A stretch of DNA of 64,000 bases from Bacteroidales bacterium (lineage in GTDB: Bacteria > Bacteroidota > Bacteroidia > Bacteroidales > UBA3824): positions 1-64,000 of the forward strand of contig JAFPYR010000083.1 in the NCBI GenBank assembly GCA_017412115.1, in the 5' to 3' direction. The notes under the pieces were generated by a model. That model ran no database searches. It was not told the origin of the DNA and was given only the letters and a program-made list of their open reading frames with translations. Positions 14,298 through 52,690 of this stretch are shown here, in pieces; positions within the stretch are counted from its first letter, which is position 1; the number at the start of each line of letters is the position of its first letter. The position numbers and the translations under genes were made by a program.

Positions 14298-14319
14298 TTT
14301 TCTTTGATATTAAAAAAGG

Positions 14320-14354
14320 CATCCGGCAGAGAAAGTCTGCCGGATGTTTTTTTT
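14320..14354 (+). terminator. Rho-independent terminator ending the second susCD-lipoprotein unit
   Basis: CATCCGGCAGA (14320-14330), loop GAAAG, and TCTGCCGGATG (14336-14346) form a perfect 11-pair GC-rich stem followed by eight T. It lies 22 bases after the last stop codon. Confidence 0.95.
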
Positions 14355-14389
14355 GTGTGTGGGTGTATGAAAAACGAGATTTTATTTAA

Positions 14390-14460: not shown

Positions 14461-14488
14461 TGATGTATGTCAAAATATCGTCTGTGAT

Positions 14489-15258: not shown

Positions 15259-15264
15259 CATATT

Positions 15265-15326
15265 AAAAAACTGTCGAAAAAGGGGAGGAGTTTTATATAA
15301 AAATCCTCCTTTTCGACAGTTTTTTC
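15265..15326 (-). terminator. Terminator of the iorAB operon
   Basis: ACTGTCGAAAA...GGAGGA (15270-15289) pairs with TCCTCCTTTTCGACAGT (15304-15320), a 17-pair stem with a 3-base bulge. A-runs and T-runs flank both sides, so it could act in either direction. It lies just downstream of the iorB stop codon on the minus strand. Confidence 0.88.
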
Positions 15327-15347
15327 TTTTGAATTATAAAAAATAAA

Positions 15348-15917
15348 TTAGTTGTTAACGCCGGCGTCAAACGCTTTTAAGTTTGTCTCTACGATAGCCT
15401 CGCCTTTTTTTGCGAAAATCGTTTTAACAGCCTCGCGAAGTTGTTCTACGCTGAGAATTTCAATAAATGGTGCTGCCATTCCGAGCAAAACCATATTTGC
15501 TGCTTTGGGCATTGCAACTTGTTTTGCAATTTCTTCAATATCAAGTTTTTTGATGTTAGGCAATGTGTCCAATTCTGCAAATAGTTTAGCCTCGTCGGGG
15601 TAGTCGGGAATGTTGATAAAAGGTTTTGCATTTGTTACGACCTGAGACTTTTTGTTCAAATAAGGCAAATAACGCAAAACTTCCATCGGCTCCATCGAAA
15701 TAAGCAAATCGGCTTTCCCTTTTGGAATCAAATCAGAGTAAATCTCTGAATCAGAAAGTCTTAAATTGCTTTGAACGTCGCCGCCCCTCTGACTCATACC
15801 ATGAACCTCAGCCTGTTTTAAAAACAATCCGGCTTTTGTAGCTGCTTCGCCAATAACGGTTGCGATAGAGAGGATTCCTTGTCCGCCTACACCGCAAAGT
15901 ATTAAATCTTTCTTCAT
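15348..15917 (-). CDS. iorB: Indolepyruvate ferredoxin oxidoreductase, beta subunit
   Basis: This 189-residue protein is the small gamma-type subunit of 2-oxoacid:ferredoxin oxidoreductases. With IorA it oxidatively decarboxylates aryl pyruvates to aryl-acetyl-CoA, or in reverse makes them from arylacetates, in the cytoplasm. The start MKKDLILCGVGGQGILSIA carries the diagnostic GVGGQG loop at 9-14. HGMSQRGGDVQSNLR (39-53) is the other conserved segment of this family. Its ATG overlaps the iorA stop by 4 bases (ATGA), implying translational coupling. The length is normal. Confidence 0.93.
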   Translation of the reverse strand: MKKDLILCGVGGQGILSIATVIGEAATKAGLFLKQAEVHGMSQRGGDVQSNLRLSDSEIYSDLIPKGKADLLISMEPMEVLRYLPYLNKKSQVVTNAKPFINIPDYPDEAKLFAELDTLPNIKKLDIEEIAKQVAMPKAANMVLLGMAAPFIEILSVEQLREAVKTIFAKKGEAIVETNLKAFDAGVNN

Positions 15918-17500
15918 TTTTTCTTGTGTCTTTTAAGGGTTTGCATACATTCGCGGCGGGGAATTATAACCGAAACGCCGTTATAATTGATTTCTTCCTC
16001 GATAATTTTGGTAATTTCGGGCATATTTTTCGGCATCGGAACCACAACTCTAACGTGCTTAGGATCAACGCCCAAACCTATACAAATAGCCTCGTATTTG
16101 TTTAAGCCTGCCGAATCTTGACCGCCTGTCATTCCCGTTGTTAAATTATCAGAAATTATGACCGTGATATTAGCATTTTCATTAACGGCGTCCAAAAGAC
16201 CTGTCATTCCCGAATGTGTGAAAGTTGAGTCGCCGATAACAGCGATTGCGGGGAAAAGACCTGCATCAGCCGCGCCTTTTGCCATAGTGATTGAAGCTCC
16301 CATATCCACGCAACTTGCCAATGCTTGAAACGGTGGCAATGCGCCCAAAGTATAGCAACCTATATCGCCGAAAACTCTTGCATTTTCATATTTTTTGATA
16401 ACCTCTTTCAATGCTCCGTAAACATCTCTGTGTCCGCAGCCTTGACAAAGTTGAGGCGGACGGTTTGAAAGATTTTGAGCGGCAGAGAAATCTTCTTCGA
16501 TTTTAACGCCGAAAGCCTGAGCCACAGCATCCGGTGTGAGTTCGCCTTGACGTGGCAAATTACCAGTCAGACGTCCCAAAACTTCAGCTTTGTCGCCGAC
16601 AATTCTCTTAACGTCCTCTTCTACAACGGGTTGTCCGTCTTCTACGACGAGGATTTTTTTGCAGTCTTTGGTTAAATTCAAAACTGCTTGTTCGGGCAGT
16701 GGGTATTGAGAAATTTTTAAAAGTTTTATGCCTTTGACGCCGTAATTTTCAATGGCTTCTTTAACGTAGTTGTAACCTATGCCGCAGGCTACAACAGCCA
16801 AATCCTGACCGTAATTTTCTTCACGGTTGAAAACGGATTTTTCAGCGGCGTTTTTCATTTGGGGCTGTTTTTCAATCAAACCGGCGTATTGTTTTTTAGC
16901 GATTCCGGGCAAAAGCACCCAACCGCGTGATGTTGAAGGATTAAAAGGATTCATATCCTTGATTTCGTCGATTTTAACGGCAGCCCTTGAATGAGCAAGA
17001 CGTGTTACAACTCTCAACAAAACAGGCTCTTGAAGTTTTTCGCTGAGTTCAAAAGCGATTTTCATCATATCGAAAGCCTCTTGTTGGTTTGAGGGTTCAA
17101 AAATAGGAATCATTGCAAATTTTCCGTAAAATCTTGAATCCTGTTCGTTTTGACTCGAATGCATTGACGGGTCATCAGCTGCCAAAACGACCAAACCACC
17201 GTTAACACCTGTTACGGCGGAGTTTACAAAAGCATCGGCACATACGTTCATGCCGACATGTTTCATACAAACTAACGCTCTTTTTCCGGCGTAAGACATA
17301 CCCAAAGCGGCTTCCATGGCCGTTTTTTCGTTAGTGCACCAACGAGAGTGGATATTCCGCTCTTTGGCGGTTTGATTGTTTTGAATAAATTCGGTAATTT
17401 CAGTGGACGGCGTTCCCGGATATGCGTAAACGCCGGAAAGTCCGGCATATATCGCACCTAAAGCAATCGCTTCGTCCCCTAATAATAAAGTTTTTTCCAT
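15914..17500 (-). CDS. iorA: Indolepyruvate ferredoxin oxidoreductase, alpha subunit (no ferredoxin domain)
   Basis: This 528-residue thiamine-diphosphate enzyme is the large subunit paired with IorB. The N-terminal pyrimidine-binding region has YPGTPSTE (27-34). The CQGCGHRD segment starts at C352. The TPP-binding IGDSTFTHSG...NLTTGMTGGQD region follows. Archaeal and many bacterial IorA proteins continue with a C-terminal two-[4Fe-4S] ferredoxin domain after the conserved RREC. Here the protein ends about ten residues after RREC, so electrons must leave by a separate ferredoxin or another route. This short form is, as far as I know, usual in Bacteroidota. The gene heads the iorAB operon. Confidence 0.93.
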   Translation of the reverse strand: MEKTLLLGDEAIALGAIYAGLSGVYAYPGTPSTEITEFIQNNQTAKERNIHSRWCTNEKTAMEAALGMSYAGKRALVCMKHVGMNVCADAFVNSAVTGVNGGLVVLAADDPSMHSSQNEQDSRFYGKFAMIPIFEPSNQQEAFDMMKIAFELSEKLQEPVLLRVVTRLAHSRAAVKIDEIKDMNPFNPSTSRGWVLLPGIAKKQYAGLIEKQPQMKNAAEKSVFNREENYGQDLAVVACGIGYNYVKEAIENYGVKGIKLLKISQYPLPEQAVLNLTKDCKKILVVEDGQPVVEEDVKRIVGDKAEVLGRLTGNLPRQGELTPDAVAQAFGVKIEEDFSAAQNLSNRPPQLCQGCGHRDVYGALKEVIKKYENARVFGDIGCYTLGALPPFQALASCVDMGASITMAKGAADAGLFPAIAVIGDSTFTHSGMTGLLDAVNENANITVIISDNLTTGMTGGQDSAGLNKYEAICIGLGVDPKHVRVVVPMPKNMPEITKIIEEEINYNGVSVIIPRRECMQTLKRHKKK

Positions 17501-17607
17501 CAGAAAAGAAATTTTTTTTTAAAAATCGGGGGTAAAGTTACAAAATTTTTTCTGAAAAAGGGGAAAGAATACGGTTTTATTTTTTTATTGTGGTTCTCTT
17601 TTTTTAG

Positions 17608-17646
17608 AAATCCGCAGTTTGATATGATTTTTCAAACTGCGGATTT
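17608..17646 (-). terminator. Hairpin terminator of the GH53 polysaccharide locus
   Basis: AAATCCGCAGTTTGA (17608-17622) and TCAAACTGCGGATTT (17632-17646) form a perfect 15-pair stem just after the GH53 stop codon. On the minus strand the tail is TTTCTAAAAA, so the T-run is weak on that side and stronger on the plus strand. Confidence 0.75.
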
Positions 17647-17667
17647 TTTTGTTAAAAGAAAATACCT

Positions 17668-19206
17668 CTATTCGTTAGAAGTGTATTTATAAGTTAAATT
17701 CTTTATGTCGAAAGTTAAAGTGTAATCGTAATTGCCATCAGCTGTAGCCCAAAACCAAAAATGATCGTAGTCGCCTGCGGCTTTTTGCATAGAAGCTGTT
17801 TCACCGGCTGTCGGTTTATTCCAATTTATCGGACCGTATTTGTTGCCGTCTTTATCTGTTACGGTAAATTCGAGATTTGCTTTTATTTCGGTTAATGTAC
17901 CTGAATATGTACCGTCTTCTTGTTTTTCAAGCGTTCCGAGTTCTTCGCCGGTTCTTGCAGCTATATGAAGTACATCGGCATCGGCATTAGCGTTAGGATC
18001 ATTTTCCGGTAAAAGATAATTATAATTTCCGCTGAAAACTTTCAATGCGTCAGCCGGTTTACCACTTGCAAGAAATCCGCCCTTATTATATTTGTTGAAC
18101 GAATTATATGCTTCAGGCTCCCAATAAAATACACCGAGACAGCGTTCTACTTCTTCCCTCATGCGCAAAACGGAGTTTATTATTGCTCTTTGTCCGTTCC
18201 ATGTAGCGATAGATTCTGTTCCGAGTTCACAGACCATGACATCTTTGTTGCATTCTTGAGCAATGGTGTTGAGATTTTTTATGCACTCGTCAATGTAGGT
18301 TGAGTACCAATTGGAAACTTTAAAATCAGGATACAACGAAACTCCGAGTATATCGTAATTCGCATTGTGCTGTTTTAATAATTTTGCAGCATAAACGGCG
18401 TCGCTTTCTATTTGACCGTTTTGAATGTGAACTACTGTTTTACATGCTAAAAACACTTCTTTTGCGGCTTTGTTTGCTTGATTGCAAAGTATAGCAAAGT
18501 TTCCGTTAGTGTTGGAAAGTCCGCCGTTAGCGTTAGTAGCTTCTGTTGTTTTGTCTGATTGTTTAGTCATCATACCTGTTTTGGTTTCGTTGCCGATTTG
18601 AACCCAAGTTACGTTTATGCCTGCATTTTTGATTTTTTCAAGGGATTCTTTTGTGTAACTATAAACTTTATTAGCAAGTTCATCTTGGCTTAAATTATCC
18701 CATGCCGCAGGTTTAAACTGTTTTGACGGATCAGCCCATGTGTCAGAATAATGAAAATCAATCATAATTTTCATTCCTTGTGCTTTGGCACGTTTACATT
18801 TTTCAATCACATCGTCAATATTGCAAAGTCCGTTGATTCCTTCTTCACTTGAGGGATTTACCCAAACTCTGAATCTTGCAGCATTGAAGCCTATGGTTTT
18901 GAGCAATTCAAGACATTCCGTCTCTTTGCCTTCCGAGTTATAAAATTTTATGTCTTTTTGCTCCATAAGGGTTACCCATGAAGGGTCGCAACCGTAAATG
19001 AAATCTGCTTTTGTATTAGCAATTTCTTCATATTCCTCGGTTGAGGGAGGATTCGGATTATCCGGATTGGTAGTGTTTGTGCCGCTACCATTGGTTACTT
19101 TTATCGGTGCCGGAATTTCCAATTCCGATTTGTCATCATCGTTGCACGCTGTCATAGCAGTAGATACTATTAACGATGATAACAATATATAATTAAACTT
19201 TTTCAT
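17668..19206 (-). CDS. GH53 arabinogalactan endo-beta-1,4-galactanase, surface lipoprotein
   Basis: This 512-residue lipoprotein has Cys21 (AMTACNDDD). Residues about 66-395 form a glycoside hydrolase family 53 (beta/alpha)8 barrel, including FRVWVNP, the strongly conserved IDFHYSDTWADP (149-160), WVQIGNE with the predicted acid/base Glu207, and DVMVCE with the predicted nucleophile Glu327. GH53 enzymes cut beta-1,4-linked galactan of pectin side chains. The remaining hundred residues (about 410-512) form a separate beta-rich domain ending FDIKNLTYKYTSNE, resembling the last domain of SusE/SusF-type proteins. It is the last gene of the susC-susD-susE-GH53 unit, so the enzyme probably works on the cell surface ahead of uptake. 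Confidence 0.9.
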   Translation of the reverse strand: MKKFNYILLSSLIVSTAMTACNDDDKSELEIPAPIKVTNGSGTNTTNPDNPNPPSTEEYEEIANTKADFIYGCDPSWVTLMEQKDIKFYNSEGKETECLELLKTIGFNAARFRVWVNPSSEEGINGLCNIDDVIEKCKRAKAQGMKIMIDFHYSDTWADPSKQFKPAAWDNLSQDELANKVYSYTKESLEKIKNAGINVTWVQIGNETKTGMMTKQSDKTTEATNANGGLSNTNGNFAILCNQANKAAKEVFLACKTVVHIQNGQIESDAVYAAKLLKQHNANYDILGVSLYPDFKVSNWYSTYIDECIKNLNTIAQECNKDVMVCELGTESIATWNGQRAIINSVLRMREEVERCLGVFYWEPEAYNSFNKYNKGGFLASGKPADALKVFSGNYNYLLPENDPNANADADVLHIAARTGEELGTLEKQEDGTYSGTLTEIKANLEFTVTDKDGNKYGPINWNKPTAGETASMQKAAGDYDHFWFWATADGNYDYTLTFDIKNLTYKYTSNE

Positions 19207-19256
19207 GTTTGTTTCTTTTTGTTGAATTAAACCAATAAAAAACTGTCCCTAAATTT

Positions 19257-21032
19257 TTATAATAATGTGGCGGTTGCTGAGTATGAAACCGTACCGTCGG
19301 CATTTGCTGTGGCTTTAAAGACAATATCGTATGTACCGTTTGGTAAACTTATGTTACCGCCATCAGTAGATAAATTATCTATTGTTCCGCCGAGCCAAGT
19401 GCTTCCATCCGTGAATTTAAAATTAGTGTTATCGATTGCAATATCACTAAATGTATAAGTATAAACAAAATTTTCATCCGGACCAGTTGGAGATACAGCA
19501 TTGGCAGTCGTAGACCAATTATTGAATCCTCCGGCAATAGCAAATTTTACATTTGAGAGATCAGCACGAGGTAAATCACCAGTTTTTTCAGCTGTAAGAG
19601 AATAAGTTATTGTTCCGTCATCGTTGCAAACGGCTTTTACGGTAAGGGTGTAAACTCCGGCAACAGTTGCAGCGGGATTAGAACCCGATACATCAAGATT
19701 ATCACTAACGGTTGTAAATGCACTTGAACCTAAGAAATCGCTGATAGGTGCTGTAGTACGGAAACCGAAACCTTGTGTTAAACCAACACCCGTAAATTTG
19801 GCTTCGTATTCGTAATCGGCTGTTTTGGTAAATTTTACACCGGGAGTTTCTTCCGATGGTTCCCAATTATCGTACCAACCCATGTCTCCGCCTACTACAA
19901 GAATACTTGTATTTGAAAGGTCTTTGTGCAAATCAATGTCGCCCGTTAAAAACTCGTATGTCCAAACACGTTTTGTAGTGGTATATTTCAAATCCAATTT
20001 CAAAACGTATGTTCCGGCAGTGGGAACAATAATTTTGCTCTCAGCACTTTCTACTGAAAGAGTTCCATCAGTACCGCCGAAGTAGAAATTGGTTTTTTCA
20101 CCGGCATCTGCACCTGTTGTTGAATTATATAATGTAGCATCACCGGAAATAATAATTTCTTGATTATCGGCTGTCGTTGTTATACTTCCCATCCATGAAA
20201 CACTTTCTCTGTCAAAAGTAAGGTCAGCCTCAGCATCGCCCGATACTGTCAAAGCAGAAATATAAGTGTAACTCATTTCCATAGCGACATTATCCTCCAA
20301 GAAATAATAGCAACCGGCGGGCTCAGGACTCCATAAGTGGAGTTTTTTCTCATCATCCCAATCGGTGGTAATTTTTCCGAATTTCCATTCGTTTTTGCCG
20401 CTTGTTCCGTATGCAATCCCTTTATTATCAACGGAGGTAAAGTTTAACCAACTTTTTGCACCGACAAAACCATTGTAAATATTATTGTCTTCCTTAGAGA
20501 AGAGCAATGCGATAGTATCGCCCGAAGTTTTATCTTGGTCGAACAAATATAAGTAAGCCGGTGCCGGGTACGGTGTTACTGATACTTTTACAATATTGCT
20601 GTAAAGCGTTTCAGAATTGGTGCTAAGATTACTTGCAATGCGGAAATAAATTGTTGTTGCAATCTTGGGTTCAAGTCCGAGTTTGTTTGCCAATGTTTGA
20701 AGTTGTCCGTGAGTGAATTCGGCTTTTTCAACGCCTTCAACAGCCTCATAATTTGCAAAATCTTCTGTTTTGGAAACTTGTAAAGTGAGATTTCCTCCTT
20801 TGGGAATTGTTAAAGCCTCTGCACCACCTCCTACGGCAAGTGTTGAGGAATTCCAAGTAAGGGTCAAAACTTTTTCACTTATTTTGTCAATATCAAGTAC
20901 GGCTGTCGTTACATCGACCGACAATTCACTTGGAGTCAGCCCCGATACTGTATAATGTTCCAAATCGTCTTCACAAGCTGACATTAAGCCGGCAATAGCA
21001 AAGACTGATAATATATATTTTAACTTTTTCAT
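19257..21032 (-). CDS. SusE/SusF-like surface glycan-binding lipoprotein
   Basis: This 591-residue lipoprotein has Cys20 (GLMSCEDD-like: LMSACEDD). An N-terminal SusE-type beta domain covers about residues 25-155 (LTLTWNSS, LTLQVSKTEDFANYE, YFRIASN). Several beta-sandwich modules follow. The last two begin LSNTSILVVGGDMGWYDNWEP and LSNVKFAIAGGFNNWSTTA, with the GG-x-x-x-W pattern of SusE/SusF carbohydrate-binding modules and surface-exposed Trp. It sits between susD (21 bases) and GH53 (50 bases), where characterised galactan loci encode the surface glycan-binding protein. It probably binds galactan at the cell surface; the ligand is inferred only from context. Confidence 0.83.
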   Translation of the reverse strand: MKKLKYILSVFAIAGLMSACEDDLEHYTVSGLTPSELSVDVTTAVLDIDKISEKVLTLTWNSSTLAVGGGAEALTIPKGGNLTLQVSKTEDFANYEAVEGVEKAEFTHGQLQTLANKLGLEPKIATTIYFRIASNLSTNSETLYSNIVKVSVTPYPAPAYLYLFDQDKTSGDTIALLFSKEDNNIYNGFVGAKSWLNFTSVDNKGIAYGTSGKNEWKFGKITTDWDDEKKLHLWSPEPAGCYYFLEDNVAMEMSYTYISALTVSGDAEADLTFDRESVSWMGSITTTADNQEIIISGDATLYNSTTGADAGEKTNFYFGGTDGTLSVESAESKIIVPTAGTYVLKLDLKYTTTKRVWTYEFLTGDIDLHKDLSNTSILVVGGDMGWYDNWEPSEETPGVKFTKTADYEYEAKFTGVGLTQGFGFRTTAPISDFLGSSAFTTVSDNLDVSGSNPAATVAGVYTLTVKAVCNDDGTITYSLTAEKTGDLPRADLSNVKFAIAGGFNNWSTTANAVSPTGPDENFVYTYTFSDIAIDNTNFKFTDGSTWLGGTIDNLSTDGGNISLPNGTYDIVFKATANADGTVSYSATATLL

Positions 21033-21053
21033 AATTGATTCTTTTTTTTAAGA

Positions 21054-22655
21054 TTAATAACCTTCGTTTTTAAGATTCGGATTTGCCGAAAGTTCGTATG
21101 CTGGAATCGGGTAGCAGTTGTATTTTTTATCAACTGAGATTCCGTTCATAACTTTTCCACGCCAAGAAAAATTTTCACCGCCCGTAAATTTTCCGAAACG
21201 TATTAAATCCGTACGGCGGACACATTCAAGATACATTTCTCTTGCACGCTCGTCTAATATGAAATCTAACGTAACCGAACCTGCTTCTACTTTACCTGAA
21301 GCATCGTATGCTTTGTCGTATGCGCGTTTGCGTAGTTCATTTATGCAATCAGCGGCAGAAGGTCCTTCGCCAGAGCCGCCGCGAAGTTTTGCCTCTGCAA
21401 TGTTAAGATAAATTTCGCCTAAACGGAACATTGGAAAATCTGTATCAACACCATTCGCATTGGCATCGCAAGATTGTTTGCCGTCTTGGTTGGAATTTTT
21501 CCATTTAACGCTTTGAAATCCTTGTGCCGGATCTGTGGGTTTTAAAATATCAAAAGATAAATCCTTGCACCAAAACATACAACGTTTATCTTCTTTATTA
21601 AGACCGTTGTCAGTGTTGTTGTCAGCTGCGCTTAATCCGAACAATGCCGGGATTTCTTTTCTCGGACGGAAATTTCCCCATCCTGCAGTAGAGCCGATAT
21701 ATGTTTTTGCAGCATCGGAGGTAACAGCACCGCAAACCAAAAGCGAGGTAACACCCCAAGATTGAGAATTTTCAGAATCTACTATTAGCGGGAAAATAAT
21801 TTCGTTAGTGCATTTGTAATTGTCGGCTTTGAAAAGGTTGGAATAATCACTTTCCAAAGAGTATTTGCCGCTGTTCAAGATTTTGTTGGAGACTTCAATA
21901 CATTCGTTGTATTTTTTTTCTCCAGTGTAAACCTCGGCATTAAGATACATTCTTGACAATAAAGCATACGCAGCATATTTTCCTGCACGTCCGTATTCGG
22001 GTGTTTCAGAGAGCTTTTCGGCGATATCTTTCAATTCGCTTTCAATGTATTCAAACATTTGTTTTCTTGAATAAGACGGTGGGGTACTAGCGCCTATTCC
22101 CGTATTTTCGTCAGTGAATGGTATTGTGTTGAAAAAGTCAAGAGCATGCGAATAACACAAAGCGCGGATAAAGCGGGCTTCGGTTTTATAATTTTCTATT
22201 TTTGACATTTCCTCTGACGAAAGTGATGCCGTATTGCAATTGAGGATAAACTCGTTAGCGAGAGTAATCGAATACATCAATTGGTAATAAAAATCATTGA
22301 CCCATTGGTCGTTGGCATCCCATTGAAGATACATAATGCCGCCCATATTGTCGCCTTCTGCCCATTGCGAAATCATTTCGTCGGTTCCGAGCTCTTGAAG
22401 GTTACAAAAATCACGCATATAACCGTCATCTTTCGGACTGTTATCCGTTATATCAGCATCACCGCCGCCTTTTTCTTGACCTTTCATCGTAAACCGCGAA
22501 TAAAGTTTGGCAAGCACCATATTGTATTTTTCTGCTGAGGTGTAGACATCCTTTGATGTAATTTCCAATTCGGGATACTGATCGAGGTCGCTGGTGCAGG
22601 CGTTAAAAAATGTCAGTCCCGAAAAAACTAATGTATATAATAATTTTTTGTTCAT
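21054..22655 (-). CDS. SusD/RagB-like lipoprotein of the predicted galactan locus
   Basis: This 533-residue SusD-family lipoprotein has Cys20 (FFNACTSDLD). Typical features are YKTEARFIRALCYSHALDFF, LRKRAYDKAYDASG, DERAREMYLECVRRTDLIRFG and the ending NPNLKNEGY. The length is typical. It follows susC by 24 bases and precedes the susE-like gene by 21 bases on the minus strand. With the SusC-like barrel it should form the import complex for oligosaccharides released by the GH53 enzyme encoded in the same unit. Confidence 0.94.
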   Translation of the reverse strand: MNKKLLYTLVFSGLTFFNACTSDLDQYPELEITSKDVYTSAEKYNMVLAKLYSRFTMKGQEKGGGDADITDNSPKDDGYMRDFCNLQELGTDEMISQWAEGDNMGGIMYLQWDANDQWVNDFYYQLMYSITLANEFILNCNTASLSSEEMSKIENYKTEARFIRALCYSHALDFFNTIPFTDENTGIGASTPPSYSRKQMFEYIESELKDIAEKLSETPEYGRAGKYAAYALLSRMYLNAEVYTGEKKYNECIEVSNKILNSGKYSLESDYSNLFKADNYKCTNEIIFPLIVDSENSQSWGVTSLLVCGAVTSDAAKTYIGSTAGWGNFRPRKEIPALFGLSAADNNTDNGLNKEDKRCMFWCKDLSFDILKPTDPAQGFQSVKWKNSNQDGKQSCDANANGVDTDFPMFRLGEIYLNIAEAKLRGGSGEGPSAADCINELRKRAYDKAYDASGKVEAGSVTLDFILDERAREMYLECVRRTDLIRFGKFTGGENFSWRGKVMNGISVDKKYNCYPIPAYELSANPNLKNEGY

Positions 22656-22679
22656 TTTATGTTCTGTTTTTTTACTTTG

Positions 22680-25643
22680 TTAAAGAAAATTGAAGCCTAA
22701 AGTTATCGAAAAAACTCTCGGTCTCGGATAGAAGTTGTTATCAACACCGTTGGCAATTTCCGGATCTGTTCCGTTGTATTTGGTTACGGTGAATACGTTT
22801 TGAATCATTGCTGAAGCATTGAGTGAACACCACGGAGTTATTTGTCCGAAATTATAACCGAGCGAAATGTTGTCCATTTTGAGGAACGAAGCATTTTCGA
22901 GATAATAATCTGAATAATATTGACGGCCTATAAATTTGGTTTCTTTGTATGAAGCGGCAAAATTATTTAAGTCTTTTTCACCCCAATGTGCTGATGAATA
23001 AGAACCGTAATTCATGGAAAGACCGTTGAATACATAATTTCCGAGGTTTGCTCTCAAACTTGTGGAGAGAGTCCATTTTTTGTAACGGAATTGCGTTGAA
23101 AATCCGAAAATCCAATCCGGAGCCGGTGAATGTGCACTATATTTATCGCCTGAAGATTCTTGACCGTCTCCGTCGAGGTCGGCATAAACACCTTCCAAAG
23201 GTTTACCGTTTTCGTCGTAAATTTGGTGATAAAGACGGAATACATACGGAGTTTCTCCTTCTCTTAAGGCTTGAACAAAATGGTTGTCAATTGTAGGACC
23301 GGCTTCCGTGCTTACTACTTCGCCGTTATCAACAATTGAAAGGTTTGTGATTTCGTTTTTCTGCCATGTAGAGTTGAAAGAGACAGTCCAGCCGAAATCT
23401 TTTTTGTCGTAAACAACACCGCTGATTTCAAATTCAACACCCTTGCTTTCTACGTTACCGGCATTGCTGAGGATTGATTTTGCAAAATTAGTTCCGCCTG
23501 CAACGGGAATTTTAGCCAAAAGATTTTCTGTTTTACGGGTATATATATCCAACGTACCGTAAACTTTGCTGTTGAAAAATCCGAAGTCAAGACCTAAGTT
23601 GTAAGCTTTTGTGGTTTCCCAAGTGAGTTTTTCGTCATAAGCAGAGGGACGGAATGTGTAATAATAATAATCACCGAGCTGATAGAGCGCACCGGGTTGT
23701 GAAATCTTGTAGACAGGAAGATAAGCATAATTACCGATACCGTCCTGCTGACCCGTTACACCGTAACTTGCACGGAGTTTAAGATTGTTAATCCATGAAA
23801 TTCCTGACATGAAATCTTCACCGCTAAGTCTCCAAGCCAAAGCTACGGACGGGAAAGAACCCCAACGGTTGTCTTCACTAAAACGGGAAGAACCATCTCT
23901 ACGGATAGTTGCCGTTACCATATATTTGTCAGCCAAAGTAAAATTTACACGTCCGTAATATGACAAAAGGACGTGAGTTTGGTCTTTTGCTGCTATTGTT
24001 TTTTGAATATCTTGTGCAACGTTGAGTTCAGGGTATGAAGGATGTTCGCTGTGCCAATTTTGATAATCGTAACCGGCGGTTGCGTCAAAATAAAGAATAC
24101 CCCATTTTTTGTTGTAGTTGAGATATGCTGTAAAAAGTTTATTGCTGTTTTTTTCTGGACCGTAAGTATATTTTCTACCTCCGGAAGCATTTTGTTCGGC
24201 AGCCTCGGCAGGGATAAAAATATCACCTTCGCCTTTTGCAAAATCACCGCCGAGAGTAATATGAGCTTTCAAATCCGGTAAAAAGTGCATTTTGTAATCT
24301 AAATCAAGATTAGCGATAGCACGTTTTACTGTTGAAGTATTTTCGTTTTGTTCAACAAGACCGAGCGGATTTTTAGCTGCTGAGGTTTGCAATGTTCCGT
24401 CCGGATTTGTTACTTCGTAATAACCTCCGTATATTGAGTTCTGGTCATGAACGGGCATTGTCGGGTTGGCTGTTATTGCAGCACCTATAGCACCGTTATT
24501 GCCGAAAGTATTCTTATTGATTGCGCCTTTAAAACTTGCATTAACTTTTAAGTGTTCGTCAAAAAAAGTAGGAGTAAGATTAACGCTTGCCGTTGTGCGT
24601 TTTACGTTATCGTTCAAGAGTATACCGTTTTGATCGGAATATCCGAAAGAAACACGGTATGGTAAAAATCCTTGTTTGCCTGAAACGCTGAGATTGTTGT
24701 CTGTTCCGAAGGCTGCATGATAAATTTCATCGTTCCAATCTGTGTTAGCCGTTCCGATGTTTGCGGTAACGTCATCAATATCTTTCATCTCGTTGATAGC
24801 TTGGATAAATTCCTCGCGTGAAAGCATTTCGGGTAGTTTGGTTTTGAAAGATACCGAATTTGTGGTAGTGAAATTAATTTTGGGTTTTCCGCTCTGACCT
24901 TTTTTGGTATTAATAATGATGACACCGTTTGAGGCTCTTGAACCATAAATAGCAGTAGAAGAAGCGTCTTTTAAGATTGTCATTGATTCAATATCGTTAG
25001 GGTTGATAAGGGAAAGGAAATTATTATCGTTGCCTGAGATACCGCCGTTTTCCAAAGGCACACCGTCGAGAACGATAAGCGGGTTGTTTGAAGCGTTAAG
25101 AGATGCACCACCGCGGATTTTAATTGTGCTTCCGCCTGAAGGTGAACCACCACCGTTTGTGATTTGAACGCCGGCAACCTTACCGTTGATGAGTTGTTCA
25201 GGGCTGGATACAACGCCGCCGTTAAAATCTTTTTCAGAAACCGATGCAATAGAACCGGTCATGTCGCCTTTACGTTTGGTACCGTAACCGATAGCTACGA
25301 TTTCTTCCAATTCCGTAACGGCGGGGCGCATTTGGATGTTCAATTTGCCCGCAGAAGGAATGTTTGTCGTTACGCTTTCGTAACCGATAAATGAGAAGAT
25401 TATAGGTTTGTCATCGTTTCCGCTTGGGATACTCAAGGAATAATTACCGTCAATGTCGGTAATCGTACCAACGGTAGTTCCCTGTAAGGCAACGGTAACG
25501 CCTATCAATGGCTGATTACTTTCGTCTGTTACATTTCCCGAAACTATTTTCTGGGAAAATGCTGAACATGAAAGCACCATAAATGTCATACATAGCATTA
25601 ATCTCGCTATAATATAACGCAAATTTAATGTTTTACAGTTCAT
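22680..25643 (-). CDS. SusC-like TonB-dependent receptor of the predicted galactan locus
   Basis: This 987-residue SusC-family receptor heads the minus-strand susC-susD-susE-GH53 unit. The signal peptide ends near residue 30 (SCSAFS/Q). A carboxypeptidase-regulatory-like domain covers about 32-108, a TonB box LEEIVAIGYG lies at 112-121, and the plug contains LIVLDGVPL and DASSTAIYGSRASNGV. The barrel ends PRPRVFSITLGFNFL, with a C-terminal aromatic residue. By comparison with the characterised pectic galactan locus of Bacteroides thetaiotaomicron, which has the same susC, susD, surface-binding and GH53 order, it is predicted to import galacto-oligosaccharides. No N-terminal extension for sigma/anti-sigma signalling is present. 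Confidence 0.94.
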   Translation of the reverse strand: MNCKTLNLRYIIARLMLCMTFMVLSCSAFSQKIVSGNVTDESNQPLIGVTVALQGTTVGTITDIDGNYSLSIPSGNDDKPIIFSFIGYESVTTNIPSAGKLNIQMRPAVTELEEIVAIGYGTKRKGDMTGSIASVSEKDFNGGVVSSPEQLINGKVAGVQITNGGGSPSGGSTIKIRGGASLNASNNPLIVLDGVPLENGGISGNDNNFLSLINPNDIESMTILKDASSTAIYGSRASNGVIIINTKKGQSGKPKINFTTTNSVSFKTKLPEMLSREEFIQAINEMKDIDDVTANIGTANTDWNDEIYHAAFGTDNNLSVSGKQGFLPYRVSFGYSDQNGILLNDNVKRTTASVNLTPTFFDEHLKVNASFKGAINKNTFGNNGAIGAAITANPTMPVHDQNSIYGGYYEVTNPDGTLQTSAAKNPLGLVEQNENTSTVKRAIANLDLDYKMHFLPDLKAHITLGGDFAKGEGDIFIPAEAAEQNASGGRKYTYGPEKNSNKLFTAYLNYNKKWGILYFDATAGYDYQNWHSEHPSYPELNVAQDIQKTIAAKDQTHVLLSYYGRVNFTLADKYMVTATIRRDGSSRFSEDNRWGSFPSVALAWRLSGEDFMSGISWINNLKLRASYGVTGQQDGIGNYAYLPVYKISQPGALYQLGDYYYYTFRPSAYDEKLTWETTKAYNLGLDFGFFNSKVYGTLDIYTRKTENLLAKIPVAGGTNFAKSILSNAGNVESKGVEFEISGVVYDKKDFGWTVSFNSTWQKNEITNLSIVDNGEVVSTEAGPTIDNHFVQALREGETPYVFRLYHQIYDENGKPLEGVYADLDGDGQESSGDKYSAHSPAPDWIFGFSTQFRYKKWTLSTSLRANLGNYVFNGLSMNYGSYSSAHWGEKDLNNFAASYKETKFIGRQYYSDYYLENASFLKMDNISLGYNFGQITPWCSLNASAMIQNVFTVTKYNGTDPEIANGVDNNFYPRPRVFSITLGFNFL

Positions 25644-36434: not shown

Positions 36435-37058
36435 ATGGACATTCAAAAATATTTTCCGAATTTAACACCGCTGCAAATAGAGCAGTTTTCCGTTTTGGAG
36501 AAACTTTATCCACAATGGAACGAAAAAATCAACGTTATTTCAAGGGCTGACATCGAGCATTTGTTTGTCCGTCATATACTTCATTCCCTTTCTATTGCAA
36601 AATTCAATTTGATAGAATCCTCCGAAAATATTCTTGACGTAGGTACGGGCGGAGGTTTTCCGGGGATTCCGTTAGCGGTGATGTATCCTGAGAAAAAATT
36701 TACGCTGATAGATTCAATCGGTAAAAAAATCACTGTTGCAAGCAGTATAGCTCAAGCAGCCGGTTTAAAAAATGTTACGGCTAAACAAATAAAATCCAAT
36801 ATGTTGAACGAAAGGTTTGATACGATTACGAGCCGTGCCGTTACTGCATTTCCTAACTTTTTGAAACAGACGAAAAACAATCTTGAAAAAAACGAAAAAT
36901 CAAAAATAGTATATTTAAAAGGCGGAGATTTCGATGATGAAATTTCCGCCGTAAAGTCTAAATGTAAAATTTATAACATAACGGAGATTTTTGACGATGA
37001 ATTTTTTGAAACCAAAAAAATTATCGTTTATACGCCTTTTATAAATACCGTTAAATAA
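36435..37058 (+). CDS. rsmG: 16S rRNA (guanine-527-N7) methyltransferase
   Basis: This 207-residue class I methyltransferase modifies G527 in the 530 loop of 16S rRNA. Motif I is ILDVGTGGGFPGIPLA; FTLIDSIGKK and SRAVTAF are the other conserved GidB/RsmG segments. NEKINVISRADIEHLFVRHILHSL at about 32-55 is the family's RNA-binding N-terminal signature. The length is normal. It starts 26 bases after the sigma factor gene and overlaps the convergent metallo-beta-lactamase gene by 8 bases at its 3' end. Confidence 0.95.
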   Translation: MDIQKYFPNLTPLQIEQFSVLEKLYPQWNEKINVISRADIEHLFVRHILHSLSIAKFNLIESSENILDVGTGGGFPGIPLAVMYPEKKFTLIDSIGKKITVASSIAQAAGLKNVTAKQIKSNMLNERFDTITSRAVTAFPNFLKQTKNNLEKNEKSKIVYLKGGDFDDEISAVKSKCKIYNITEIFDDEFFETKKIIVYTPFINTVK

Positions 37059-37692
37059 TTTCTACGAAAGGATTTTCTGTGGTTTCATGACTTACGGAAG
37101 TCGGTTCGCCATGTCCGGGGAAAATTTCGTATTCGCAGTCAAAACGTAAAATTTTGTTGCGGATAGAATTCATTTCGTCTTCGTATGATGCGCCTTCAAG
37201 GTCGGTCCTGCCGATTGTACCCTTGAAAATCGTATCACCGGTAAACATAAATTTCTCTTTTTCAGCGTAAATTGTCATGCCTCCGGGTGTGTGTCCGGGC
37301 GTTAATGTGCATTTCAATTCTGAATTGCCGAATTTTAGAGTCGTGCCTTCCTGACATTCGATGTCAATTTTTATCGGTTCTGAAATTTTCCATCCCCATC
37401 TTGAGGCATATTTATCGGCATCCTCCAAAAGGAAATTGTCTTTTATATTGGCAGCAAAGGGAATAGAAAATTTCTCTTTCAGAAAATTAACACCTAAAAT
37501 ATGGTCGCTATGACAATGGGTATTAGCAATTAAAACCGGTTTTAAATCTTTTTCTTGAAGAAATTTTAAGAAAAAATTGCGTTCGGCTTGACTGTAACAA
37601 CCCGGATCGATGATTACACATTCTTTGGTTTCATCATAAACGGCGTATGTATTAACTTCAAAAAGATTGAATCGGAAAAACTCTATATTCAT
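37051..37692 (-). CDS. Metallo-beta-lactamase-fold hydrolase (glyoxalase II-like)
   Basis: This 213-residue cytosolic MBL-fold protein has the binuclear metal motif THCHSDH (HxHxDH), TPGHTPGG with the third-motif His, the bridging Asp in FTGDTIFKGTIGRTD, and a closing PGHGEPTS His. This set matches glyoxalase II-like hydrolases such as YcbL, which cleave thioesters. It lacks the C-terminal helical substrate domain of true GloB, so the substrate is uncertain. The start overlaps the 3' end of the 110-residue gene by 4 bases (ATGA), placing it in the aspS unit. Confidence 0.9.
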   Translation of the reverse strand: MNIEFFRFNLFEVNTYAVYDETKECVIIDPGCYSQAERNFFLKFLQEKDLKPVLIANTHCHSDHILGVNFLKEKFSIPFAANIKDNFLLEDADKYASRWGWKISEPIKIDIECQEGTTLKFGNSELKCTLTPGHTPGGMTIYAEKEKFMFTGDTIFKGTIGRTDLEGASYEDEMNSIRNKILRFDCEYEIFPGHGEPTSVSHETTENPFVEII

Positions 37693-38021
37693 AAATTTTG
37701 CAGTACTTTTTCTAAAACGGTTTTATGCATCGGAATCGTTTTTTTGGCAAATTCAAAGATGTCTTTTAGTGCAGCAAAACTGTATTCCATGCTTGAATAA
37801 TCCGTGTATTGTTTGATCTCGACGTTAGAGCGCAAAATATCTTTGGTACTTTCGTCGAGCATTATGAAACATTCGATTATAACAATAACATTAGTACGGA
37901 TATTATCAAAAACTTCTTCAGTTCTTTTGATTTCTCCGTACATATTATAATCGGCTGTTACAAACATGATATTTTTACATGCTTGTAACATCCGGTTAAT
38001 TATGTTTTTTGTGTCGTTCAT
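37689..38021 (-). CDS. Uncharacterised 110-residue protein
   Basis: I do not recognise a family. The protein is soluble, has no signal peptide or TM helix, and looks alpha/beta: strands NIMFVTADY and NVIVIIECFIML, then mainly helical segments to the C-terminus (LKDIFEFAKKTIPMHKTVLEKVLQNL). Its ATG shares one base with the aspS stop (TAATG) and its TGA overlaps the next start (ATGA). It is therefore tightly coupled between aspS and the MBL hydrolase, which makes it very likely to be a real translated gene. Two cysteines are present but form no metal motif. Confidence 0.75.
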   Translation of the reverse strand: MNDTKNIINRMLQACKNIMFVTADYNMYGEIKRTEEVFDNIRTNVIVIIECFIMLDESTKDILRSNVEIKQYTDYSSMEYSFAALKDIFEFAKKTIPMHKTVLEKVLQNL

Positions 38022-47156: not shown

Positions 47157-49481
47157 ATGAAGAGAATCTATTTTTTTGTTTTAACATTATTTATTTGCCT
47201 CAATGAGGTTTCTGCACAAAAAGTCGGATTGGTTTTAAGCGGCGGTGGTGCTAAAGGTTTGGCTCATATCGGCGTTCTTAAAGCCTTGGAAGAGCAAGGA
47301 ATCCCGATTGATTATATAACCGGAACTTCTATGGGCTCGATTATCGGAGCCTTGTATGCCTGCGGTTATAATACGGACGAGATGACTGAAATTTTTAGTT
47401 CCAAAGATTTTAAAAAATGGCATGCCGGAGAGACTGCCGACGAATTAAAATATTTTTATAAGCAGGACGATCAGACCTCGGAATGGTTTAAACTTAGAAT
47501 GTCTGTTGATTCCGTCTTAAAAGTTTATCTTCCCACCAATATTATTTCTTCGCATCAAATGGATTTTGCTTTTGAGGAAATAATGGGTCCGGCGGCTGCG
47601 GCTGCGGGTTATAATTTTGACTCCTTGATGGTGCCTTTCCGTTGTGTGGCTTCTGATGTTTACAAAAAGCGATCCGTTATTTTTAGCAACGGACATTTAA
47701 GCACGGCTGTACGTTCTTCGATGGCTATTCCCCTTTATTTTAGGCCTGTGATTTTTCAAGGAAGTCTGCTTTTTGACGGCGGTATTTACAACAACTGTCC
47801 GATTGATGTTATGGAAAAGGATTTTAATCCCGATATTATTCTCGGGGTTCAGGTCAGCACTAACAACGAAAAACCTAAGGAGGACGATTTGATTAGTCAA
47901 ATCGAAAATATGGTTATGGACCCGAGCAATTATGTAATTCCTCAGGGCAAAGGTTTTATGATTGTGCCTGATGTTCTCAATCACAGTACTTTGGATTTTG
48001 AGCCTTGTGAAGATTTAATCCGCCGCGGTTACAATGCCGTTTATGAAAAAATAGATTCTATTAAAGCCTTGATTAAAAGGCACGTAACCGACGAACAATA
48101 TTTTGAGCGCAGAAGTAATTTCAAAGCCAAAATTCATCCTTTGGTTTTTGACAGTTTTTCCATTTCGGGTACGGGACTTAAAAATTCTCATTCAAAATAT
48201 ATTTTAGCGTCTTTCAAAGATTTTAAGCACGATACTCTTTCACTTAAGGACATGAGACGGGAATTTTATAAAATAGCTGCCGATATAACTTTGGACAGAA
48301 TTTATCCTACAACGAATTATGATCCTAATGTTGAAAAATACGGTCTTGATCTTGAACTTACAAGGCGTAAAACTCTTTGCGCTAAAATCGGTGGAAATAT
48401 TTCAACTTCAGCCAATTGCGAAGGTTTTTTGGAGTTGGAAAAACTTTTTTGCGCATATATTCCTACTATTGTAAGAGTTAATGGTTATTTCGGAAGATTT
48501 TATACCTCAGGTATGGCTCAAATGAAAGCTTATTTCCCCTCTCCGGAGTTCTCGTTTGAAACTGCCATTCAATTGAACCGTTACAATTATATGGAGGCAG
48601 ACCCGGATGTTTTCTTTATTGACACCAGAAGTCCGATGTGCATAAAAAATGATTTTGAATATTATGCTAATTTTATTTTGCCGGTTATGATGGCGGGTAA
48701 ATTCTATGTGGGAACCTCTTTAGGACGTTTTTCGGAGCAGTATAATATTTCGCCTGTTTATCTGTCTTCCAATCAGTTAGACAAGACGACTTTGAGTTAT
48801 AACGGCTATCATATAACTTATCTGCGTCAGACCTTGGATCATGTTACGATGCCGGGAAAAGGAACGAATTTTATGTTGAAATTAAAATACGCAAAAGCAA
48901 GGGAAAAATTTATTCCCGGAACTGATTTTACCGGTGAAAAAAGTGATTATTTGCCCGAAAAGAGAGATTTTTTTGATATTTATATTTCTTACGAAAATTA
49001 TTCTTTTGGTAGCAAAAATCATAAATTCAGTTTTCCGTTTTCGGTGGAACTCAATTTAAGTAAGCATGACGAATTGCATAATTCTATGGCAACGCTGCTT
49101 ACAACTAACGCATACCGTCCTACCGATTATACCAAAACAATGCTTTTTGAGGATTATCGTGCTTCAAAATATCTTGCCGGAAGTCTCGGCGTATTGTACA
49201 GATTTACAGAGGATTTCACTTTTAGAATTGCGGGTTACGCTTTTGAACCCTACAAAAAGGATTTTCTTGTTGTTAATGAAGAAAAAAATACTTACGAATA
49301 TGAAAAACGCGGAAAATTTGACGGTTTCAAATATTTCTTCAACGCCGCACTTTCGTATCAAACCTTTATCGGACCTTTGGCCTTTACGGTAAGATACGAG
49401 CCTGAAGGCAAAAGTCATTTTTATTATATGTTCAACCTCGGATTTATGATTTATAATAAATCTTGGTGGGACAGAAACTAA
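47157..49481 (+). CDS. Patatin-like phospholipase with C-terminal outer-membrane barrel domain
   Basis: This 774-residue protein has a signal peptide (about 1-20, NEVSA/Q). A patatin domain covers about 22-300 with the oxyanion loop SGGGAKG, nucleophile Ser58 in GTSMGS, and Asp207 in FDGG, so the Ser-Asp dyad is intact. About 325-400 may be a POTRA-like segment. The remainder is beta-rich and ends in aromatic-rich strands (YYMFNLGFMIYNKSWWDRN), consistent with an Omp85-type barrel as in PlpD-like type Vd autotransporters. It would be an outer-membrane or surface lipase. It is the last gene of the small-TM/pseudo-caspase/patatin unit and overlaps the convergent GGGP synthase gene by 4 bases. 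Confidence 0.9.
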   Translation: MKRIYFFVLTLFICLNEVSAQKVGLVLSGGGAKGLAHIGVLKALEEQGIPIDYITGTSMGSIIGALYACGYNTDEMTEIFSSKDFKKWHAGETADELKYFYKQDDQTSEWFKLRMSVDSVLKVYLPTNIISSHQMDFAFEEIMGPAAAAAGYNFDSLMVPFRCVASDVYKKRSVIFSNGHLSTAVRSSMAIPLYFRPVIFQGSLLFDGGIYNNCPIDVMEKDFNPDIILGVQVSTNNEKPKEDDLISQIENMVMDPSNYVIPQGKGFMIVPDVLNHSTLDFEPCEDLIRRGYNAVYEKIDSIKALIKRHVTDEQYFERRSNFKAKIHPLVFDSFSISGTGLKNSHSKYILASFKDFKHDTLSLKDMRREFYKIAADITLDRIYPTTNYDPNVEKYGLDLELTRRKTLCAKIGGNISTSANCEGFLELEKLFCAYIPTIVRVNGYFGRFYTSGMAQMKAYFPSPEFSFETAIQLNRYNYMEADPDVFFIDTRSPMCIKNDFEYYANFILPVMMAGKFYVGTSLGRFSEQYNISPVYLSSNQLDKTTLSYNGYHITYLRQTLDHVTMPGKGTNFMLKLKYAKAREKFIPGTDFTGEKSDYLPEKRDFFDIYISYENYSFGSKNHKFSFPFSVELNLSKHDELHNSMATLLTTNAYRPTDYTKTMLFEDYRASKYLAGSLGVLYRFTEDFTFRIAGYAFEPYKKDFLVVNEEKNTYEYEKRGKFDGFKYFFNAALSYQTFIGPLAFTVRYEPEGKSHFYYMFNLGFMIYNKSWWDRN

Positions 49482-50191
49482 ACAAGTATTGAAGAATTGA
49501 AAAAGTCGGGATTTTTCTCAAACGCTGAGCCAATGACAGTGATGTCGGCTCCGGCGTTAAAGGCTTTTTCAATATCTTGCATACTGCGCAACCCCCCGCC
49601 TGTGATTATCGGCAGCGATACGCAATCTCTGACAGCAGAAATCATTTCTTTTCTAATCGGATTTTCAGCACCGCTTCCGGCCTCAAGGTAAAGACATTTT
49701 AGTCCTAAAAATTCGCCTGCAACTGCTGTTGCCGCTGCTAAATCGGGTTTGTCTTTCGGTATCGGCATCGTATTGCTGATGTATTGAACGGAAGTAATTT
49801 TGCCGCCGTCAATCAAAATATAACCCGTAGGAATAATTTCTAATCCCGTTTTTTTTATTTTAAAAGCCGTTTTGACGTGTTCGCCGATTAAATATTCGGG
49901 ATTTCTGCCCGAAATTAAACTCAAATACAAAAGTGCGTCAGCCTCTTTTACAACCTGTGAGGCTGCCCCGGGAAACAAAACAACGGGTTTTCCCGTGGAT
50001 TGTTTCAATGCTGAAATTATTTCCTCAACCGGATTATTGACAAGACTACCGCCAGCTAAAATTATTTCAGCAGGAGATTTTTCTATGATTTCACCGTAAC
50101 GTAACGCTGTTTCTGAAGTTAATTTGTCGGGGTCCAACAAAACTGCAATGCGCTTTTTGTCCCGTGAAAAATATTTTTGATATATCGTCAT
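49478..50191 (-). CDS. Geranylgeranylglyceryl phosphate synthase (GGGPS/PcrB family)
   Basis: This 237-residue TIM-barrel prenyltransferase joins a polyprenyl diphosphate to sn-glycerol-1-phosphate to make an ether lipid precursor. Visible are the N-terminal IAVLLDPDKL, AEIILAGGSLV, VVLFPGAASQV, GYILIDGG, YLEAGSGAENPI and the C-terminal phosphate-binding ITGGGLRS and GADITVIGSAFEK. Group II GGGPS enzymes are known from Bacteroidota as well as archaea; chain length cannot be set by eye. It lies downstream of the broken phosphopantetheinyl transferase by 12 bases on the minus strand, at the end of the ssb-gldE-gldD run. Confidence 0.9.
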   Translation of the reverse strand: MTIYQKYFSRDKKRIAVLLDPDKLTSETALRYGEIIEKSPAEIILAGGSLVNNPVEEIISALKQSTGKPVVLFPGAASQVVKEADALLYLSLISGRNPEYLIGEHVKTAFKIKKTGLEIIPTGYILIDGGKITSVQYISNTMPIPKDKPDLAAATAVAGEFLGLKCLYLEAGSGAENPIRKEMISAVRDCVSLPIITGGGLRSMQDIEKAFNAGADITVIGSAFEKNPDFFNSSILV

Positions 50192-50203: not shown

Positions 50204-50839
50204 TTATTCGGCGCACCATGCCGTCATGTAACCGTCAAATTCGTTGTAATGAATGGTGAATTTTTTCTCTAAATCGCCTTGCATGATTTTGCCCGGGACT
50301 TTGCCGCACGAAAGATAATCAAAGGTTTCAAGGCGGAAATTGTCTTTGAAATCAAAATCCTTTATGTTGAAAGCCTTGTACATAGCCTCTTTAGCGCACC
50401 AATTAACATAAAGACTTTGGATTTTGTTGTCAGGTTTAAGTCCGCTGATTTCGGATTTTTCCATGAATTTGTGTTCTATTTTCAAAATCCTTTAATTCAT
50501 TTTTTCGATGTCAAGACCTATATGATTTTTGTCGGAAATCATAACGCCCGCCATGTCGTAACTATGTGTTATAGATATATTGAAACCGTTTTTGATATAT
50601 GGTTTGCCCGAGTCGTAATAAAAAACTTCAGCGTGCTGACCGATAAGTTTTTGAATCAAAAGTCTGCTTGCAAGCCATTCGCAGCGCCTTCTCTCATGCG
50701 TTAAATCCTTGTATTGAGTCAATTCTCTTGCATTCAAGGAGTCTTTTAACATCGAAAAAAGTTCTGCGCTTTCTTCCTCGATTTTCCAAAAACCGATGAT
50801 ATTATTTTCTGATTTTATTGTTTTGTCCAAAAATGCCAT
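50204..50839 (-). pseudogene. 4'-phosphopantetheinyl transferase (Sfp type) interrupted by an in-frame TAA
   Basis: Two adjacent frames in the same phase make one Sfp-type phosphopantetheinyl transferase, the enzyme that puts the phosphopantetheine arm on acyl carrier proteins. The first part (from ATG 50839, MAFLDKTIKS) has GKPYIKNGFNISITHSYD and GLDIEKMN. A TAA then falls at 50492-50494, and the same frame continues RILKIEHKFM, WCAKEAMYKAF and DFKDNFRLE. Related proteins read straight through this point, with DIEK...RILKI...KF contiguous. The metal Asp is before the stop and the WxxKEA Glu/Lys after it, so neither half can be active. This is a nonsense mutation, a sequencing error, or an unrecognised readthrough. 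Confidence 0.88.
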
Positions 50840-50843: not shown

Positions 50844-51422
50844 TTATTTCCATTGCAAAGTTTCAAAAATTTGTTTTATGTCTTCCCGTATGAAATTTAC
50901 AGCCGGCAAAAGCGAATCTTTGTTAGGAGAACTATTAAAATAAAGCGAACCCCTGAGAAAATGTTTCGTGCTGTCGGTCAAATAAAACTGCACGGGACTT
51001 GCTACGTTGCCTTTGAGATTGTACATAAGACCGTAAACTCTTGTAGAGTCGTTGTAATACGATATTTTTTCGATTGCATCGGCTTTTACGGTGTGTTTGT
51101 AAGCAAGTGTATGCGAATCCTCAATCAGAGTATCAAGATTGTTGTTAAGAAAAGTGAACGTAATATGAATTTTGGCGTTCATGCCTTTGAAAACGATATT
51201 GGTCCAATATTTTTCGGCTCCTCTTGAATTTTCTTTTTCCATAATGCAATAATTCGGCATAGCAAAACTATACGGCAAATCCACTGAATCATAAATCGAA
51301 TATTCTTTTTCAGGAAATGTTATCCTAAAATAACCTCTTGGTTTTGGCGTCGGCTTGTGCGAACACGAAAACAGCATGAAAGCCGTAAAAACCGTTATAA
51401 AAATTTGTATGTGTTTTTTCAT
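50844..51422 (-). CDS. gldD: Gliding-motility-associated lipoprotein GldD
   Basis: This 192-residue lipoprotein has Cys20 (LFSCSHKP). It matches GldD: PKPRGYFRITFPEKEY, the aromatic LPYSFAMPNYCIM region, LAYKHTVKADAIEKISY, and a C-terminal FNSSPNKDSLLPAVNFIREDIKQ. In Flavobacterium GldD is required for gliding and type IX secretion-linked functions; many non-motile Bacteroidota also carry it. It overlaps gldE by 4 bases and lies between gldE and the phosphopantetheinyl transferase, the usual order ssb-gldE-gldD in Bacteroidota. Confidence 0.92.
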   Translation of the reverse strand: MKKHIQIFITVFTAFMLFSCSHKPTPKPRGYFRITFPEKEYSIYDSVDLPYSFAMPNYCIMEKENSRGAEKYWTNIVFKGMNAKIHITFTFLNNNLDTLIEDSHTLAYKHTVKADAIEKISYYNDSTRVYGLMYNLKGNVASPVQFYLTDSTKHFLRGSLYFNSSPNKDSLLPAVNFIREDIKQIFETLQWK

Positions 51423-52690
51423 TGTTCTTCTTCTTTGGGATTAGAAATAATTTTAACGCTTATTTTTTCGATGCGTCTGTTGTTGAACGCCTCGGTTATG
51501 AATACTAAATTCTTGTACGAGATTTTTTCGCCTAATTGCGGAAATTCGCCGCGCATTTCCAAAAGTACTCCCGCTAACGATTCCGCATCGCCTTTCACGC
51601 CTTGAAAAAAATCATCGTCCAGATTCAGCGTTTTGTAAAAATCGCTTAACATGATTTTGCCGTCGAAAATATAATGCGTTTCACTTATTTTCTTAAACAT
51701 TATTTCGTCGTTGTCGTCGAACTCGTCAGAAATCTCGCCTACGATTTCCTCCAAAATATCCTGCATCGTTATCAAACCCGAAATGCCGCCGTACTCGTTT
51801 GAAACGACTGCCATGTGGATTTTTTTCTGTTGAAAAACTTTCAGCAAATCGGATATTTTTTTGTTTTCCGATACATAATTTATTTTTTTTACAAGCCTTG
51901 TCCAATCAAAACTATCGTCCATGGAAATATATTTCAACAAATCCTTGACGTAAATTATGCCGTAAATATTGTCGGGCGTTTTTTCAAAGACCGGAATTCT
52001 TGAAAAATTGGATTCTACAACGAGTTTTTTTAGGGCAGAATATTTTTCGTTTTGTTCTATTGCAACAATATCGTGCCTTGGGGTCATAATCTCTTTTACT
52101 TGAGTATCACCGAATTGAAGAATATTTTTTAAGATTTCTTTTTCGCCGATTTTTGTGTTGCCGGAGTCTATTGCAACCGAAATTTGTTCGGAATCGCTGT
52201 CCTCTTTTTCCTTGGCATAAATGCTTGAAAAAATTAACAACGAACCTGTTTTGATGGCTGATTTAACAAAAAATTTAGTTTTGAAAACAAACTTTTCTTT
52301 TTGCGCCAAAGTGAAAACACGGCTGGGAATTTCAATGCTGATAACAAGCAGAAAGGTTGTTATCAAAAACAAAACCGCATATTCCAAAGCCGGATATTCT
52401 CCAAAATCCAAAACCGCCGTGTAAGGCGAAAAAACATTTGACGGAGATTTTACTAAAGAGAAGGCACACAGCGCAAAAATTACCGTTAAAAGTATTTCCC
52501 ACGCCGAAATCGCTGCTTTTGCTTTGTTTTTATTTTCTTTTTTTATTAACACGCCTACCGCACCTCTTGCCCAAGAAAGTGAGAACAAAAGTGTGAGTAT
52601 TACAATCATCAGAGCGGGAATAATGTACGCACTGAAGTCAGAAGGCGCAATTAACGCAAAACTTAATATCGTATTTAAAATAGTTTCCAA
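51419..52690 (-). CDS. gldE: Gliding-motility-associated protein GldE (CorC/HlyC family)
   Basis: This 423-residue inner-membrane protein has an N-terminal segment of three or four TM helices (IVILTLLFSLSWA, WEILLTVIFALCAF, YAVLFLITTFLLVI), then a CBS pair (about 200-335; KEIMTPRHDIVAIE, GISGLITMQDILEEIVGEI) and a CorC/HlyC-type domain (about 345-415, GDAESLAGVLLEMRGEFP). This is the GldE architecture. The first in-frame start is a TTG at 52690; the nearest ATG would cut into the first TM helix, so TTG is preferred. It lies between ssb and gldD. Confidence 0.9.
   Translation of the reverse strand: METILNTILSFALIAPSDFSAYIIPALMIVILTLLFSLSWARGAVGVLIKKENKNKAKAAISAWEILLTVIFALCAFSLVKSPSNVFSPYTAVLDFGEYPALEYAVLFLITTFLLVISIEIPSRVFTLAQKEKFVFKTKFFVKSAIKTGSLLIFSSIYAKEKEDSDSEQISVAIDSGNTKIGEKEILKNILQFGDTQVKEIMTPRHDIVAIEQNEKYSALKKLVVESNFSRIPVFEKTPDNIYGIIYVKDLLKYISMDDSFDWTRLVKKINYVSENKKISDLLKVFQQKKIHMAVVSNEYGGISGLITMQDILEEIVGEISDEFDDNDEIMFKKISETHYIFDGKIMLSDFYKTLNLDDDFFQGVKGDAESLAGVLLEMRGEFPQLGEKISYKNLVFITEAFNNRRIEKISVKIISNPKEEEQ

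Follow-up and report, generated by a model that had tools for sequence, protein, structure and literature searches.

Does the single stop codon inside the phosphopantetheinyl transferase (PPTase) gene of this Bacteroidales genome record a real loss of the enzyme, or did it arise during sequencing and assembly? The window, i.e. the whole stretch of 64,000 nucleotides that was analysed, is part of contig 35 of a 4.09 Mb genome (G000; 132 contigs, 95.2% complete). Translated across the stop, a frame of 211 codons on the minus strand (50839-50204) encodes an Sfp-type PPTase, reading ...GLDIEKMN*RILKIEHKF...WCAKEAMYK...AWCAE* with asterisks for stops. A sequence-only reading of this DNA, which gave no strand, had described one in-frame stop in the gene and intact gldD and GGGPS genes beside it. 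Both points are confirmed: there is exactly one internal TAA (50494-50492, codon 116), and the two neighbours have open frames and match their families (Table 1).

Table 1. Features of the interrupted PPTase gene and its neighbours, in window coordinates.
Feature	Position	Strand	Basis
GGGPS / PcrB family gene, intact	49478..50191	-	Open frame and family match
Sfp-type PPTase frame with one interruption (211 codons counted from the ATG, then the final TAA)	50204..50839	-	Translation, PF01648, identity to sister
C-terminal PPTase piece, 95 codons plus final stop	50204..50491	-	Translation, profile search
WCAKEAMYK motif (E151), after the stop	50375..50401	-	Motif
TTG codon 6 bases past the TAA, behind AGGA	50483..50485	-	Nearest feature possibly suiting re-initiation
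In-frame TAA, codon 116	50492..50494	-	Translation; Leu or Asn there in genus orthologues
N-terminal PPTase piece, 115 aa, with metal-binding motif G-L-D-I-E	50495..50839	-	Translation, profile search
GLDIE motif (D110, E112), before the stop	50504..50518	-	Motif; triad as in excerpts of PMC4103896
gldD, intact	50844..51422	-	Open frame and family match
gldE-like CBS/CorC protein gene, intact	51419..52690	-	Open frame and family match

PF01648, with a cut-off of 25 bits, gives 36.3 bits for the whole frame when the stop is ignored, and the C-terminal piece alone still passes with 26.6 bits. By contrast, the N-terminal piece, queried together with the 9 codons upstream of the ATG, reaches 21 bits against PF17837 and stays under the cut-off of 27, and it falls far under the cut-offs of the NCBIfam AcpT and HetI models. 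Sfp-type (group II) PPTases such as PcpS (7bcz), PptT, and Sfp (4mrt, 1qr0) share with the window gene the PF01648 domain, the D-x-E and K-E-A motifs, and a length of about 211 residues, whereas in the window assembly a single in-frame TAA separates these motifs. The AcpS-type PPTase has a related fold of half the size, and is half as long as the frame found here. All residues of the metal-binding triad (D110, E112, and E151) are present in the frame, on opposite sides of the stop, with E151 of the K-E-A motif taken as the third triad residue on our reading of the motif. According to excerpts of one study, the first and third residues of this triad are essential in group II PPTases (PMC4103896). 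Given that D110 lies before the stop and E151 after it, neither piece should be able to work alone.

Where the break falls in the fold was judged from a predicted structure of the PPTase of the closest relative (hereafter the sister, G014), which has a mean pLDDT of 75.1, was built from three sequences, and has low confidence at residues 1-3, 106-112, and 124-135. The model matches known PPTases over its whole length (for PcpS, 7bcz_B: Z 15.7, 192 residues, rmsd 3.9), with 14% identity to PcpS in the structural alignment; phmmer finds no PDB match for the sister protein at E≤0.01. In the structural comparison, AcpS chains cover residues ~10-106 of the model, and one row covers 108-211. The sister's predicted fold thus has two AcpS-like halves in one chain, while the window chain is cut at codon 116, i.e. 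near the predicted joint of the halves and about 8 residues past it.

The sequence-only reading had proposed a comparison with sister strains, and the gene of the sister, 95.6% identical to the window in a DNA alignment of 8.7 kb, is open at the stop site. It aligns end to end with the read-through frame (220/220 codons, counting 9 ahead of the ATG; 98.6% identity), so the interrupted gene is more than a chance pattern. The closest named record, the Bacteroidales MAG RGIG6989 (JAFYDK010000094.1, sheep rumen), appears to be this sister; its orthologue, the 98.6% identical protein, lies in the same neighbourhood but, unlike the window gene, has an open frame with Leu at the stop site. Among 15 other orthologues of the genus, this column holds Leu in 13 and Asn in 2. 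Sixteen of the 18 genus genomes have a PF01648 match, and the two that have none are 72% and 64% complete. On complete match listings for the genus and for a wider set of 39 genomes, the stop occurs in 1/17 and 1/40 matches, respectively, each time in G000 only; that is, it is kept in 0/16 and 0/39 of the other matches. Close relatives of the neighbouring GGGPS gene occur in three named records, each a Bacteroidales MAG; two of the record titles state a source (sheep rumen and goat abomasum), and in all three loci PPTase directly precedes GGGPS, as in the window. From its 132 contigs and these three relatives, we infer that the window genome is also metagenome-assembled and comes from such a habitat. 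That metagenome-assembled genomes can contain local assembly errors is known from the literature (PMC7111523, excerpt).

The earlier suggestion of a recent break or an error is supported, given that no other listed match carries the stop and that the sequence beyond it shows no decay. The window and sister genes differ at 16 codons, stop included: 2 nonsynonymous and 6 synonymous differences precede the stop, and 7 synonymous and no nonsynonymous differences follow it. Without constraint ~79% of changes are expected to be nonsynonymous, and 0/7 would then have a probability of ~2e-5, but these figures alone do not show selection after the stop, because most of the changes beyond it may predate it or fall on the sister's branch. 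Specifically, codon 158 is the only one that clearly changed on the window's branch, codons 182 and 203 seem to have changed in the sister, and the branch of the others is ambiguous. Judged from this alignment, the break would be recent at most.

How often do such breaks occur in the two assemblies? PPTase alone is broken among the 33 genes of the window that can be compared with the sister, which argues against a strongly error-ridden assembly. The other 32 are covered over at least 99% at >90% identity, with no internal break; of 41 ORFs with a match, 7 had been dropped because identity or coverage was lower, and another two, short ones at 62831 and 63586, because they lie inside the span of a longer sister ORF. 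Two further candidates in the window were rejected. One is a sister ORF of 120 aa whose window counterpart (37588-37947) contains a stop; it was taken as spurious, lying on the strand opposite to the intact ORFs 37051-37692 and 37689-38021. The other is a net frameshift in the ORF at 53048 that lies ahead of its likely true start, the sister covering residues 39-805 unbroken. Errors would be expected to create 0.03 stops per window at an assumed rate of 1e-5 per base and ~0.29 at 1e-4, figures to be read with the fact that this window was flagged because it contains one.

A control comparison was run in both directions. From the sister to ~138 kb of G000, 105 of 110 ORFs match at >80%, and 90 of these 105 are full length without a stop; from G000 to ~116 kb of the sister, 104 of 125 match, 90 of them at full length. 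Nine of the 29 remaining cases were aligned, while the rest lie at stretch ends or are partial or paralogous. G000 shows one internal break, in a PKD-domain gene, and three others at gene starts. The PKD-domain gene (L117:15970-17303, on G000:C94) has a one-base gap relative to the sister and an ORF of 368 aa against 444. On the sister's side, one-base gaps are seen in a LuxR-type gene (L122:1449-2163; two), an AMP-binding gene (L126:6747-8059; one), and a MazG-like gene (L119:12584-12958; three), and two further stops lie close to an ORF start and an ORF end. Both assemblies therefore contain single-base breaks, at a low rate. This fits an assembly error in the PPTase gene and is no proof of one, because real mutations could also produce such breaks.

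Window positions 11583-25643 align poorly or not at all to the syntenic sister contig, except for 15210-17605 (98.7%) and the end from 24822, and on this alignment look like a variable region. Elsewhere, three tandem tRNA-like elements on the minus strand (G000:C13:74966-75565) have near-identical ends, extra D-arm-like sequence, and differing middles; ARAGORN calls one of them only, as a 94-nt tRNA-Trp, and the elements may be tRNA-derived repeats.

If the break were real, the sequence-only reading had argued, another PPTase must serve the acyl carrier proteins, and a second Sfp- or AcpS-type enzyme should be sought. None was found: in the 95% complete assembly the interrupted gene is the only match to PF01648 at E≤10 and to PF17837 at E≤1, and the AcpS model TIGR00516 has 0 matches at E≤1. 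TIGR00516 is also over its cut-off in 0/18 genomes of the genus; of 14 control genomes just 5 pass with this model, which makes PF01648 the broader test. Repeating the genus search at E≤10 left the counts unchanged, i.e. 16/18 genomes match and 15 of these 16 carry exactly one copy. The remaining one, G010, has besides the orthologue a second, divergent PF01648 protein (G010:C119; 30% identity over part of the query), and 5 of 35 matching relatives in the wider set carry two matches. G000 itself has six carrier-protein matches, all open, and these proteins need a PPTase. For Synechocystis, with a single PPTase, excerpts of one study report that deletion attempts failed (PMC5605751), and the enzyme is probably indispensable in our organism too. 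As such, with no second PPTase in sight and a sole PPTase that should be indispensable, a real loss of function is unlikely, and the lack of a second gene favours an error or an unrepresentative variant over redundancy.

That argument depends on how well the models detect PPTases. Across a sample of the order, 230 of 247 genomes have a PF01648 match at E≤0.001, and 9 of 207 near-complete genomes have none. A second search at E≤10 covered ten of the 17 genomes without a match: the nine that are near-complete, and G226, with 92% completeness and 6% contamination. Two of the ten, G097 and G201, then gave a match over the cut-off, and both were recovered with the orthologue as query as well, so the search at E≤0.001 misses some PPTases. 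The other seven of the nine (G033, G071, G092, G123, G140, G177, and G256), all near-complete Bacteroidales, have no PF01648 match over the cut-off at E≤10, which suggests gaps in the assemblies or PPTases beyond the reach of the model. A near-complete draft can thus lack a detectable PPTase or hold one that escapes the models, and a PPTase may be hidden in the unassembled part of G000.

These seven genomes, in which the enzyme can be out of sight, give some room to the idea that the stop is real and recent and that the carrier proteins are served by a second PPTase, located in the unassembled 5% or too divergent for the models. The incompleteness of an assembly in 132 contigs and the second matches in G010 and in five of the 35 matching relatives point the same way. 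The single-copy state of 15/16 matching genus genomes and the failure of all three models to find a second gene in G000 speak against it, however, and we regard this explanation as unlikely. We hold it somewhat less probable still that the stop is real but tolerated, with low-rate ribosomal read-through giving enough full-length enzyme. The frame past the stop is fully conserved relative to the sister, and we suppose that little enzyme may suffice. On the other side, of 59 tRNA matches, 55 could be called as tRNAs and none of these has a suppressor anticodon (4 uncalled; 150 of 325 candidates scored), and the 121 nt of RNA around the TAA fold no better than shuffles (z 0.02), with no structure standing out. 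Nor does Rfam have a match in the window at gathering score. Furthermore, the stop is in no other match of the complete listings. TAA itself is an ordinary stop codon here: of 45 ORFs in the window, counting spurious ones, 30 end with it. A scan for promoters and terminators was uninformative.

Could the two pieces instead be translated separately, with re-initiation at the TTG or at an ATG (codon 126), and then combine to form a functional enzyme? An AGGA precedes the TTG just past the stop, and a break near the joint of two AcpS-like halves would suit such an arrangement. The break nonetheless lies about 8 residues past the predicted joint and parts D110 and E112 from E151, with the first and third residues of the triad essential in the excerpts cited above. 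Moreover, the TTG and its AGGA are also present in the sister, where they are plain coding sequence, and the sequence around the TAA is otherwise identical in that intact gene, so nothing there is adapted for a split enzyme. None of the other matches in the complete listings is divided by a stop, and a literature search by titles found none on a split PPTase. Separate synthesis of the pieces is therefore very improbable in our judgement, and we give even less credit to its strongest form, a naturally split sole PPTase that is parted between its metal-binding motifs, is active when assembled, and arose from one point change.

We consider it probable, then, that this is an ordinary PPTase gene whose stop does not represent the living population and is absent from most cells. 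The TAA would be either a single wrong base introduced by assembly or sequencing, or a rare variant at strain level that entered the consensus. The living population would make the full-length protein, an ordinary and probably sole Sfp-type enzyme predicted to load the phosphopantetheine arm onto carrier proteins.

The interrupted gene would mean little in itself. It does illustrate how a genome may seem to be without an indispensable enzyme because of one base in its draft assembly, and why a missing second gene argues for error and against redundancy. If the stop were real, a PPTase that is the only one of its genome, and is split or made by read-through, would be a surprise.
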